Source: a virus
IMG/VR virus record: IMGVR_UViG_3300039106_000113
Span: 1 to 38,553 of that record
DNA length: 38,553 nt
Strand: one strand, 5' to 3'
Under the pieces are notes generated by a model that ran no database searches, was not told the origin of the DNA, and saw only the letters and a program-made list of their open reading frames with translations. Position 1 is the stretch's first letter; each line of letters starts with the position of its first letter. Made by a program: the position numbers and the translations under genes. Shown here piece after piece: positions 17,352-21,627 of the stretch.

Positions 17352-17592
17352 ACGATTATATTTTAACAAGGTAGCAGAACTGGGTTGTATGGTTTGTAAG
17401 ATGCCAGCCGAGATTCATCATCTTAGAACTGACGCAGGTATGGGCATGAAAAGCAAAGAGGTTATCCCATTATGTCCAACGCATCACAGAAATGGTGGTT
17501 ATGGTGTTGCTATTCATGCAGGTAGGTTAGAGTTTGAAGCCAACTTTGGCACAGAGTTAGAGTTACTAGAAAAAATGAAAGGTTTACTATGA
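17338..17592 (+). CDS. Ref-like HNH nuclease domain protein
   Basis: 84 residues from MSKAERLYFNKVAEL (ATG 17338; longer readings cover the upstream HTH gene). CMVCKMPAEIHHLRT and IPLCPTHHRNGGYGVAIHAG give the zinc/HNH pattern of the phage P1 Ref-like group, which nicks DNA and acts in recombination. Short for Ref, with only the nuclease core. Its stop overlaps the next start (ATGA). Confidence 0.75.
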   Translation: MSKAERLYFNKVAELGCMVCKMPAEIHHLRTDAGMGMKSKEVIPLCPTHHRNGGYGVAIHAGRLEFEANFGTELELLEKMKGLL

Positions 17593-18197
17593 GTGTCAAC
17601 GGCATTTATTTTTCAAAGACTAAACAAAAATGGATTGCTCAATGCAGGTCAGATGGTAAGGTAAATCATATAGGCACGTATGAAACACCAGAGCAAGCAT
17701 CAATGGCTTATGCCAGCTTCAGACTTAATCTAAAACGTGAACCAACTGCTAATGACTATGTAAGGTTAGCAAGATACAAGTCATACTGTGAGTTCTGTAA
17801 AACGCCTAGAACAATATCAGAAATGTTTGCTAATTATCCTAAATCTAATACGGGTTCAGTTCGTCATGTATCAGATTACCTGGTGCAAGAAGGTTTTATA
17901 GAAAAGAAAACACAAAGCGCAAAAATTAACGCTAAAGATAAGTACATATACGTTACCATCAAAGACTTTAAAGACACAGACCTAAAGCCTATGGGCAGGT
18001 CGCAAATAAATAAAGTAAGATTTGAAACAACAATGGGTATTAAAGCTAAAGATATTATTGATGGTGCTAGAGTGATTAACTTTGATAACTTGCACCTACA
18101 AGCAAAGTATAATGAGCAACGACATTTAGATAGGCTGGCCATGAAGTCACCTAAAAACTATATAAGCGGTGCAACCATGTCAACTGCTGATTGGTAG
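17589..18197 (+). CDS. AP2-domain protein with possible winged helix
   Basis: 202 residues. Residues 5-48 (GIYFSKTKQKWIAQCRSDGK, HIGTYETPEQASMAYASF) form an AP2 DNA-binding domain like those in phage HNH homing endonucleases, but no HNH motif follows. Residues about 66-115 (CEFCKTPRTISEMFANYPKS, then VRHVSDYLVQEGFIEKK) resemble a winged helix. It is the last gene before the late promoter region, so a transcription or antitermination role is an attractive guess, unproven. Confidence 0.65.
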   Translation: MSVNGIYFSKTKQKWIAQCRSDGKVNHIGTYETPEQASMAYASFRLNLKREPTANDYVRLARYKSYCEFCKTPRTISEMFANYPKSNTGSVRHVSDYLVQEGFIEKKTQSAKINAKDKYIYVTIKDFKDTDLKPMGRSQINKVRFETTMGIKAKDIIDGARVINFDNLHLQAKYNEQRHLDRLAMKSPKNYISGATMSTADW

Positions 18198-18382: not shown

Positions 18383-18751
18383 ATGGGTATATTAGAAGCT
18401 GCACCAGTTTTAGTTTCTGCTAAAGAGAACATATCTAACACCAAGAAAGCTATTGCTAACTGGAACTTGGGCGCAAAAGATGTAGACGCACCTAACAATG
18501 AATTTTGGCGCAAGATGGCTAAGATATGGTCAGTAGATGAAAAGACAGCTCGCACTCAGATATGCGGTAACTGTGCTTACTACGACAACACCCCAGAAGT
18601 CTTATCAGCAATGACAGACAAATACCCACTCAACGAATTTGATATATACAACTCTTTTACTCAAAGAGGTTATTGTCACAAACTAGACTTTTGTTGCCAT
18701 ACGCCTAGAACTTGTCAGGCATGGGAACGCAAAGATTACGAGGAAGAATGA
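18383..18751 (+). CDS. Cys-rich conserved phage protein (putative zinc binder)
   Basis: 122 residues. ICGNCAYYDNTPE and GYCHKLDFCCHTPRTCQAWE give six Cys with a His, a likely metal site. Similar Cys-rich proteins sit near terminase genes in other phages as far as I recall; function unknown. First gene after the structured leader; AAGGA precedes the ATG by 6 nt. Its stop overlaps a 13-residue ORF (TGATG). Confidence 0.65.
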   Translation: MGILEAAPVLVSAKENISNTKKAIANWNLGAKDVDAPNNEFWRKMAKIWSVDEKTARTQICGNCAYYDNTPEVLSAMTDKYPLNEFDIYNSFTQRGYCHKLDFCCHTPRTCQAWERKDYEEE

Positions 18752-18792: not shown

Positions 18793-19484
18793 CACCACTA
18801 CGCATATTTGTTGGATTTGATAACAACGCAGAGCCGATAGCATTTTATGCGTTCTGTCAGTCAATTATTGAACGCTCAAGCATACCAGTATCATTTACAC
18901 CACTATCACTCAACAACCTACAAGGCTATGAAGAAACTCATACTGATGGCAGTAATGCTTTTATCTATTCACGCTTTCTCGTGCCTTCTCTATGTGGGTA
19001 TGAAGGCGTTGCTATGTTCTTTGATGGGGATATGATTGTCAAAGACGACATCGCAAAACTACTAGCACTCTATGACGACACTAAAGCAGTACAAGTTGTT
19101 AAGCACGATTACAAGACTAAAGCCAGCATCAAGTATTTAGGCGCAAAGAATGAGAACTATCCACGTAAGAACTGGTCTAGTGTAATTATATTCAACTGTG
19201 CTAAGAACAAAGACCTAACACCTGAGTTGGTAATGACATCAACAGGTAGCTTCTTACATCGCTTCAGCTGGTTAAATGATGATGACATTGGTGAACTGCC
19301 TAAAGAATGGAACTGGCTTGCTACTGAGTACGACTTTAATCATGATGCAAAGCTAGTCCACTATACACTTGGTACTTGCTGTTTTAGTGACTATCAAGAA
19401 TGCGATTACAGCGATGACTGGTGGGATGTTTACAGTGGTTTAATCTATCCATTAACAGGTAATGACAAAGAGAGTTTACTTTAA
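18789..19484 (+). CDS. GT8-like glycosyltransferase
   Basis: 231 residues. IFVGFDNN opens a GT-A fold; SNAFIYSRFLVPSLCGYEG precedes FFDGDMIV, whose DGD corresponds to the DxD metal site that binds the sugar nucleotide. The late His motif is less clear (AKLVHYTLGTCCF). Glycosyltransferases of this type move a sugar from an activated donor. In a late operon the target may be a virion protein, host surface glycan or modified DNA; not decidable here. Confidence 0.7.
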   Translation: MTPLRIFVGFDNNAEPIAFYAFCQSIIERSSIPVSFTPLSLNNLQGYEETHTDGSNAFIYSRFLVPSLCGYEGVAMFFDGDMIVKDDIAKLLALYDDTKAVQVVKHDYKTKASIKYLGAKNENYPRKNWSSVIIFNCAKNKDLTPELVMTSTGSFLHRFSWLNDDDIGELPKEWNWLATEYDFNHDAKLVHYTLGTCCFSDYQECDYSDDWWDVYSGLIYPLTGNDKESLL

Positions 19485-19494
19485 TAACAACAGG

Positions 19495-19516
19495 GTGACC
19501 AACCAATAGGAGTCAC
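19495..19516 (+). promoter_or_regulatory. RBS-sequestering hairpin before GIY-YIG gene
   Basis: GTGAC (19495-19499) pairs with GTCAC (19512-19516). The loop and right arm contain the ribosome site AGGAG (19508-19512), 10 nt before the ATG. The same layout with different but complementary stem bases recurs at 20065-20087. Hairpins that hide the ribosome site are known for T4 I-TevI. Confidence 0.6.
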
Positions 19517-19522
19517 AATAAC

Positions 19523-20080
19523 ATGGCAGACGAAACATATTACATTTACCAATTAATAGACCCAAGAAATAGCAAGCCGTTCTATGTTGGTAAAGGCAAG
19601 GGCAAAAGGATGTACGACCATGAGAATGAAGCTAATGGTGATAGTGAGCATCCTAAATGTCATTTAATACGTGAAATAAAGTCATTAGGTTATGCTATTG
19701 AATATAATGTTGTTAAAAGATTTGAAATAGAAGATGATGCGTATGACTATGAAGAAAAGCTAATAGATGAAATAGGACTTCATAATTTAACTAATAAAAT
19801 TAGAGGTGGCAGGTTCTGTGGTTATGTAGAGCCAGTCAATGAATATTTAGAATTAGTAAAACTTTTAGCAAAGATATTTAGAAAGACAAATCTTGATTTT
19901 AATAAAAATACTATGAAAATGGGTAGACTAAGTATTGATATTACAGAGGTGTTAAAGAATATAGTTAAAAATTCATTAGCTAAACTATTTAAAGAAAAAG
20001 GTAATGATTGGGTATTGGGTAAGTTTAAAGAATATAATATTATTCTATTGATAAATAATGAGGGGCAACCAACCTTTTAG
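19523..20080 (+). CDS. GIY-YIG homing endonuclease-like protein
   Basis: 185 residues. YYIYQLIDPRNSKPFYVGKG (residues 6-25) is the GIY-YIG core, with R29 and a candidate catalytic Glu in DYEEKLIDEIG. The C-terminal 90 residues are Lys/Asn/Ile-rich with no NUMOD repeat. The gene is more AT-rich than its neighbours and splits the glycosyltransferase gene from terS, typical of a mobile free-standing endonuclease. Its stop lies inside the second covarying hairpin. Confidence 0.85.
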   Translation: MADETYYIYQLIDPRNSKPFYVGKGKGKRMYDHENEANGDSEHPKCHLIREIKSLGYAIEYNVVKRFEIEDDAYDYEEKLIDEIGLHNLTNKIRGGRFCGYVEPVNEYLELVKLLAKIFRKTNLDFNKNTMKMGRLSIDITEVLKNIVKNSLAKLFKEKGNDWVLGKFKEYNIILLINNEGQPTF

Positions 20081-20087
20081 GAGTTGC
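20065..20087 (+). promoter_or_regulatory. RBS-sequestering hairpin before terS
   Basis: GCAAC (20065-20069) pairs with GTTGC (20083-20087); the loop starts CAACC, as in the first hairpin, and AGGAG (20079-20083) is again 10 nt before the ATG. Compared with 19495-19516, two stem positions changed on both sides so pairing is kept. Confidence 0.6.
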
Positions 20088-20093
20088 AGTTGT

Positions 20094-20405
20094 ATGGAAA
20101 ATAATAAAGACTTTGATAAAATAGAAGGTGGTTTTTCAAAAAGAGGTGGTAAGCGTGAGGGTTCTGGTCGTAAGGCTGGAGTACCTAATAAGATTTCAGC
20201 AACAGTTAAAGAAAATGTAATATCTGTATTTGAAGCGCTAGGTGGTATAGACCACATGAAGGAATGGGCAACAGAGAACCCTAATAACTTCTATAACATT
20301 TACGCAAAGATATTGCCTACGCAGACAGAGATTAGCGGTGTTGATGGTTCAGACATTCCACTAAGCATAGGGATTAGGTTTGTCAGTAGCACAGTTCCCG
20401 AGTAA
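20094..20405 (+). CDS. terS: Terminase small subunit
   Basis: 103 residues from MENNKDFDKIEGG (ATG 20094; a reading from 20058 covers the hairpin and the GIY-YIG end). KRGGKREGSGRKAGVPNK is the basic GGxRxGxGR motif that opens many small terminase proteins; EALGGIDHMKEWATENPNNF follows, usual for this group. It recognises the packaging site and recruits TerL. Overlaps terL by 26 nt. Confidence 0.75.
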   Translation: MENNKDFDKIEGGFSKRGGKREGSGRKAGVPNKISATVKENVISVFEALGGIDHMKEWATENPNNFYNIYAKILPTQTEISGVDGSDIPLSIGIRFVSSTVPE

Positions 20406-21627
20406 GCTAGAGTTCTTATTTGAGCCACATAGATACAAGGTAGCTTATGGCGGTAGAGGTAGCGGTAAGTCATGGGGCTTTGCTAGAGCATTACTCATAC
20501 AAGCTGCTAATAAACCTTTACGCATATTATGTACTCGTGAGATACAGAAGTCTATTAAGCAGTCAGTACATACATTGCTTAATGACCAGATACAAGCATT
20601 AGGCTTAGGTGCTTTCTATGAGGTGCTAGAGTCAGAGATTAGAGGGCGCAATGGTAGTTCGTTTACATTTGCAGGACTAGCCAGTAATACGGTTGAGTCC
20701 ATTAAGTCATTTGAAGGCTGTAACATTGTATGGGTAGAGGAAGGACAAACGGTTTCTAAGCGGTCATGGGATATATTAATCCCTACGATACGGTCAGAAG
20801 GTTCAGAGATATGGGTTAGCTTTAATCCTGATGTTGATACTGATGATACTTACCAACGCTTTGTAGTCAATCCGCCTGATAACGCTAAGGTAGTTAAAGT
20901 AAATTACAGTGATAATGCTTGGTTCCCTAGTGTACTAGAGATAGAGCGATTACATAGCAAAGAACACAACCCTGACTATGCGAATATATGGGAAGGTGAT
21001 TGTAAAGCAGCAGTTGATGGTGCTATCTATTCTAATGAGATTAGAGAGGCGCAAGAAGGCAATAGAGTAACGACTGTGCCTTATGACCCAATGCTTAAGG
21101 TTCACGCTGTAATGGACTTAGGTTGGAATGATAGTATGTCTATTATCTTATGCCAACGTGGTGTGTCAGATATTAGAGTAATAGGTTATATAGAGGATGA
21201 CCATAGGACTTTAGATAGTTACTCTGCACAACTTAAAGCATTGAACTATAACTGGGGGCAAATGTTTTTACCTCATGATGGCAGAACTAAAGATTTTAAG
21301 TATGGCACTAGCGCAGAGGATATAATGCGTAAGCAAGGGTGGGATGTTAGAATAGTTCCAATTGCAGACATAGAATCAGGGATTAGAACAGCTCGCATGA
21401 ACTTTCATCGGATATACTTTGATAAGTCAGCGATACGATTAGTAGATTGTTTAAAGCATTACAGACGTAGCATTAACAACAATACGCAAGAGCCTGGCGC
21501 CCCATTGCATGATGAATATAGTCACGGTGCAGATGCGTTTAGATATATGGCCACATCAATAGACCAAATGAAGAACGAGTCATGGGGTGGCGGTAAGATA
21601 CAATATAATTCAAAAGGTATAGTATGA
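20380..21627 (+). CDS. terL: Terminase large subunit
   Basis: 415 residues, starting at TTG 20380 (no ATG fits; GGGATTAGG upstream). Walker A GGRGSGKS (24-31), Walker B IVWVEE (116-121), and nuclease residues in VMDLGWNDS, PHDGRTKD and DEYSHGADAFRY, the layout of Terminase_3/PBSX-type enzymes. It is the ATPase motor and nuclease that packages DNA through the portal. Type cannot be used here to settle cos or headful packaging. Confidence 0.93.
   Translation: MSVAQFPSKLEFLFEPHRYKVAYGGRGSGKSWGFARALLIQAANKPLRILCTREIQKSIKQSVHTLLNDQIQALGLGAFYEVLESEIRGRNGSSFTFAGLASNTVESIKSFEGCNIVWVEEGQTVSKRSWDILIPTIRSEGSEIWVSFNPDVDTDDTYQRFVVNPPDNAKVVKVNYSDNAWFPSVLEIERLHSKEHNPDYANIWEGDCKAAVDGAIYSNEIREAQEGNRVTTVPYDPMLKVHAVMDLGWNDSMSIILCQRGVSDIRVIGYIEDDHRTLDSYSAQLKALNYNWGQMFLPHDGRTKDFKYGTSAEDIMRKQGWDVRIVPIADIESGIRTARMNFHRIYFDKSAIRLVDCLKHYRRSINNNTQEPGAPLHDEYSHGADAFRYMATSIDQMKNESWGGGKIQYNSKGIV

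Follow-up and report, generated by a model that had tools for sequence, protein, structure and literature searches.

In a broad group of uncultured podovirus-like phages, the terS-position gene has as its leader a compact RNA hairpin with a built-in Shine-Dalgarno sequence (SD). In the window analysed here, a 38,553-base virus record encoding a Terminase_3 large subunit and an SU10-type portal, a gene for a GIY-YIG endonuclease appears to have captured that leader; a conserved terS-leader hairpin together with this capture is the best explanation of the locus, and one in which we have reasonable confidence. A large group of uncultured phages carries the element at their first packaging gene, and the window would provide a concrete case of a mobile endonuclease taking a neighbour's expression signal instead of bringing its own, a case that bears on the ways in which selfish genes may spare an essential gene from harm. 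The junctions also show exchange of the N-terminal part of terS between phages with unrelated large subunits, and that exchange bears on the evolution of packaging specificity.

Two copies of one element in the window

Hairpin 1, of GTGAC type (19495-19516, plus strand), precedes the GIY-YIG gene (19523-20080, plus strand, 185 aa); besides its geometry, fold and model match, its identity with the terS leader of L104 and the presence of the same hairpin before terS in L002 mark it as the resident terS leader. Hairpin 2, of GCAAC type (20065-20087, plus strand), is the present leader of the terS-position gene (20094-20405, plus strand, 103 aa) and, by its model match and by the matching order of GIY-YIG gene, GCAAC hairpin and terS in locus L097, is probably derived from a donor phage. 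The parts of hairpin 1 are, in order, GTGAC, CAA, CC, AATA, GG, A and GTCAC; those of hairpin 2 are GCAAC, CAA, CC, TTTTA, GG, A and GTTGC. The shared architecture is a 5-bp stem, a CAA/A internal loop, a CC/GG pair and an internal AGGAG, the SD of the GIY-YIG gene (19508-19512, plus strand) in the one and of terS (20079-20083, plus strand) in the other. In both, 6 nt separate the end of the stem, and 10 nt the end of AGGAG, from the ATG (at 19523 and 20094). Two changes, U-A/C-G and G-C/A-U, distinguish the stems, and both preserve pairing. The window hairpins are thus copies of one element, and the common layout, AGGAG position and 10-nt spacing from which the original prediction started are confirmed by coordinates and predicted folds. 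A covariance model, the training set of which partly included both window hairpins, finds them at E values of 5.5e-14 (hairpin 1) and 7.6e-11 (hairpin 2), with E = 1 at the next-best place in the window. Rfam yielded 0 matches above the gathering threshold over the whole window and nothing relevant in 19300-20500 at E up to 10.

Each hairpin is predicted to fold in the manner described, at -7.2 kcal/mol. Compared with shuffled sequences, hairpin 1 stands out to a fair extent (z -2.19) and hairpin 2 does not (z -0.33); competing structures arise for hairpin 2 when a wider context is folded. Since the energy is also only moderate, fold energy alone does not suffice as proof of structure; the hairpin is established by conservation, not by energy. 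That the hairpins hide the ribosome site, as had been proposed, holds in part: both predicted folds pair GG and the last G of AGGAG but leave the two A's unpaired, and the predicted SD pairing (0.58) ranks ninth and tenth among the 29 window gene starts that were scored. SD masking in the cell is accordingly a prediction, and the masking predicted is moderate.

The GIY-YIG gene matches PF22945 above the cut-off. Its motif (Y-x-Y, YVGKG, R29, E77 and N91) is kept in 9/9 aligned rows, and on these residues, catalytic R and E included, the protein is a member of the GIY-YIG nuclease family. Its stop codon (20078-20080) falls within hairpin 2 and overlaps the SD of terS. The terS-position gene owes its name here to its place before terL (20380-21627, plus strand; Terminase_3): a Pfam search assigned it to no family, it matches phrog_11043, for which the annotated function is unknown, and its structure model is weak (pLDDT 64.2).

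A leader of terS across phages

Pairing in the element is conserved. In alignment A1, 238/238 cells pair, with 31 both-side changes as against 10.8 in shuffles (0/500); in alignment A4 (from which L119, L347, L362 and L506 are excluded) 99.4% of 322 cells pair, with 40 both-side changes as against 11.5 in shuffles (0/500), and controls in which A4 was slid show 26-43% pairing. Because 44 of the 46 distinct A4 rows and nearly all A1 rows had been picked for the fact that they pair, a sample was taken with no stem condition. Among the 103 core matches (in 102 loci) examined of the 120 stretches reported, 54 lead terS-like or GIY-YIG genes, and the outer three pairs are complete in 53/54 of these sites versus 4/49 of the others. 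The fully paired matches examined represent eight different triplet pairs; two of these (in L347 and L362) precede other genes and are probably there by chance. G-U pairs are tolerated in the stems, as expected for RNA. The CC/GG pair is invariant across hairpins and, never varying, provides no evidence of covariation. The pair-preserving character of the stem differences, first remarked in the two window hairpins, therefore extends to relatives in both alignments and in the unconditioned sample; the hairpin family, its place before terS, these changes and the junctions described below are all computational observations.

Relatives were fetched by TerL alone, 80 being kept of 441, and model R1 matches 73 of the 80; six of the remaining seven start too near terL, and the seventh (L063) has a terS without a hairpin. 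The 31 whole records examined contain two strong matches only in the window, one in each of 27 others and none in 3. When viral_contigs was scanned for the exact GTGAC pattern, free of any gene condition, the matches listed (80 loci of more that matched) were chiefly terS leaders, including those of phages with TerL ~30-35% identical. The 236 complete ORFs led by the hairpin comprise 222 that form one terS component, 5 GIY-YIG genes, 4 ParB-methylase genes and 5 that are single, and most phages with the hairpin before terS have no GIY-YIG gene at that place. The upstream DNA falls into 39 clusters, across which the hairpin is retained; one cluster, L194, is a chance match, and the chance matches L119, L129, L168 and L187 and the window copy L001 are excluded from the count. 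The spacing from hairpin to ATG is 6 nt in 170/182 distinct contexts. The terS genes of L040, L074, L061, L063 and L346 are without a hairpin of their own.

The search of named phages by blastn gave no convincing element site and no named isolate; the sole match inspected, in Aeromonas phage PT2, was rejected, as it runs antisense to the genes. The covariance model does not match MW202691, H66 or nine bacterial-genome loci with TerL 40-66% identical, and a search of the literature for a terS leader hairpin found no paper describing the element.

Origin of the second hairpin, and captures elsewhere

L002, with a TerL protein identical to that of the window, carries one GTGAC hairpin immediately before its own terS; relatives lacking the GIY-YIG insert, which the original prediction proposed to compare on this point, do keep a single hairpin. 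The window tracks L002 up to 19528 and again from 20323, inside terS, which is chimeric: its 5' part is donor-like and the remainder L002-like. Over the 49 nt at 19489-19537 the window matches the terS leader of L104 without a difference, through the ATG and the MADET codons (19523-19537, plus strand) that are now the first five of the GIY-YIG gene. As for a free-standing homing endonuclease, the insert is missing at the same place in the close relatives L002 and L104, and a TerL tree, made by a quick method, groups the window with the GTGAC clade.

A peptide-pattern search of viral_contigs for relatives of the GIY-YIG gene found none; tblastn on the loci examined found homologues, 55.6% identical, in L097, L098 and L308. 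Homology to the L097 protein begins at window residue 6. In L097 the gene is followed at once by a GCAAC hairpin and a MEN-type terS, its stop codon falling within the terS hairpin as in the window, and its own leader, as read there, is a different, terminator-like structure. Since in L097/L098 the homologue thus has another leader and precedes a GCAAC hairpin with its terS, the GIY-YIG gene, hairpin 2 and part of terS probably arrived together. The simplest reading of the sequences is that these three moved from an L097-like phage into an L002/L104-like phage, where the endonuclease most likely captured the recipient's resident terS leader and first codons; terS would have retained a leader because the donor terS segment brought its own hairpin. 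Of the two origins first suggested, neither is quite right: the endonuclease did not, most likely, import its own copy of the element, and the insertion need not have duplicated the terS leader. Homing is the presumed cause of the insertion.

The leaders of the GIY-YIG genes of L097 (L097:2755-2812), L032 (L032:3110-3168) and L062 (L062:1092-1150) fold as a terminator-like three-way junction (z -2.75, -2.62 and -1.98, respectively), with one pair-preserving change between L032/L097 and L062; Rfam gave no match to the L097 leader.

Similar captures behind the hairpin can be read in the sequences of other lineages, represented by L035, L040, L074 and L346. L035, like its near copies L269 and L318, has a GIY-YIG gene behind the hairpin and a second hairpin, of GTAAT type, before terS. 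GIY-YIG genes also stand behind the hairpin in L040 and L074 and, in L346, behind one of TTGAC type; in these three terS overlaps the end of the GIY-YIG gene, in the first two by its start, and there is no second hairpin. ParB-methylase-like genes lie immediately behind the terS hairpin in L061, L237, L278, L280 and L316, and at L217:1750-3008 a gene of 396 aa separates a damaged hairpin (GAAAC/GTTGC) from the intact one that precedes terS. In L303 (543, minus strand) a 40-aa ORF behind the hairpin resembles terS with its middle deleted.

The hairpin also borders exchanges of terS itself. L106 (L106:3741-4069) and L117 are near-identical in the N-terminal part of terS but not outside it, and their TerL proteins are unrelated; the borders of the exchange lie at the hairpin/ATG and near the 3' end of terS. 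A quick TerL tree (111 rows) shows at least 21 changes of TerS type and 8 of stem type. Both main stems accompany each of the three large TerS types, in a comparison from which L194 is excluded along with the five loci left out of the cluster count; this is evidence against the idea that the N-terminal part of TerS recognises the stem.

Possible function and rival explanations

The hairpin holds the SD in its 3' half, GG pairing with the invariant CC and the last G lying in the outer stem, and would most likely act in cis to damp translation of terS for as long as it stays closed; what opens it would be either the arrival of a ribosome from the upstream gene or the release of a putative ligand that reads the conserved internal loop. 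An upstream ORF ends no more than 20 nt before the hairpin at 256 of 297 sites, past the hairpin start at 5 and more than 50 nt before it at 25; 11 have none. Translational coupling is thus possible in most of these phages, not in all. In the window, recombination would have set the GIY-YIG gene, the donor terS hairpin and the N-terminal part of terS just behind the resident terS start, so that the endonuclease would start from the resident leader and first codons and the displaced terS from the donor hairpin, which a ribosome finishing the GIY-YIG gene would open. The position of the GIY-YIG stop codon inside hairpin 2 suggests such coupling between the two genes, and makes the suspected link between endonuclease and terS expression plausible.

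A further-reaching possibility, which we put forward tentatively and think somewhat less probable than its negation, is that the terS leader hairpin is a phage translational operator read in trans and, by its conserved position, at once the left border at which phages swap TerS DNA-recognition parts and a landing pad for mobile genes, with homing endonucleases that arrive there taking over terS control. If true, homing endonucleases would be made when terS is made, and some would bring a spare hairpin that keeps terS expressed. Protein-bound translational operators are known in phages, among them those of T4 gp43 and RegA and the MS2 coat operator. The present element resembles them as a small conserved hairpin that overlaps the ribosome site and has conserved unpaired bases; it differs in that the type of the TerS N-terminal part does not track the type of stem, and its ligand is putative. 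Several candidates for what might act on the hairpin were considered. The window encodes a 122-aa cysteine-rich protein (orf18383, at 18383-18748); as a trans-acting factor it was rejected, being present in 14/30 records and missing from most GCAAC-type phages. The binding motif of CsrA-like proteins is A-N-GGA, and a CsrA-like reading of the GGA fails in that some hairpins do not keep this motif and the invariant CC would go unexplained. A competing GNRA mini-hairpin formed with an upstream GG would have only 2 bp and is missing in several classes.

In leader hairpins of the I-TevI/mobE type, a late promoter gives a transcript that omits the 5' arm. Passages of PMC2988022 and PMC3014915 describe SD-masking hairpins for the T4-group homing endonucleases I-TevI, I-TevII, I-TevIII, segB and Aeh1 mobE, and similar structures for the T4 late genes e, soc and 49. 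The window resembles the former in having an RNA hairpin predicted to cover part of the ribosome site of a GIY-YIG endonuclease gene, and the latter in that a structural or late phage gene would have its ribosome site folded away. It would be possible on this ground that the GIY-YIG gene brought a hairpin of its own, a copy of which later reached terS, and GTAAT-type hairpins with a CATTTATGG loop did always have a GIY-YIG gene upstream in the loci examined. Other GTAAT-type hairpins, however, have no GIY-YIG match nearby, the element is smaller than the T4-group hairpins, belongs to terS, before which it stands in most phages with no GIY-YIG gene there, and is neither owned by nor moves with the endonuclease; the closest homologues (in L097, L098 and L308) have another leader, as read in L097. 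The element is not an endonuclease hairpin of the kind seen in I-TevI, with which it was first compared; endonuclease-owned control is already disfavoured and highly improbable. Genes e, soc and 49, for their part, are single-gene cases, unlike a small covarying element that spans phages and three TerS types.

That the hairpin is an ordinary ribosome site which happens to be structured, kept for SD spacing or mRNA protection and regulating nothing, is unlikely, though its moderate fold energy and an SD pairing unexceptional among window genes would suit such a site; stem pairing and internal loop are kept across divergent phages with unrelated upstream DNA, and newly landed genes retain the hairpin. 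Rather less likely still is a site acting as DNA, in recombination or cleavage (a cassette border, or a packaging or homing target), with the RNA hairpin incidental. Exchanges of terS and insertions of genes do have their left border at the hairpin, and passages of PMC10448857 place nuclease genes at phage exchange borders; yet pair-preserving changes, G-U pairs and the fixed distance to the ATG fit RNA, and the stem bases are free to vary provided that pairing is kept. A conserved terS leader, captured in the window, remains the preferred reading.

Parts of PMC10448857 describe endonuclease genes that are clustered close to terminase and delimit regions of genetic exchange, and the window agrees with them in having an endonuclease gene near terminase at such a border; those parts describe no leader-RNA capture, and a text search of the paper finds hairpin and ribosome 0 times. 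In L416, L459 and L465 a GIY-YIG gene lies directly behind terS, in L416 between terS and terL, and in different phages both flanks of terS are thus occupied by GIY-YIG genes. Within the window, 1.3 kb upstream, the gene at 17589-18194 has a weak AP2-domain match, below the Pfam cut-off, and is possibly another mobile endonuclease.
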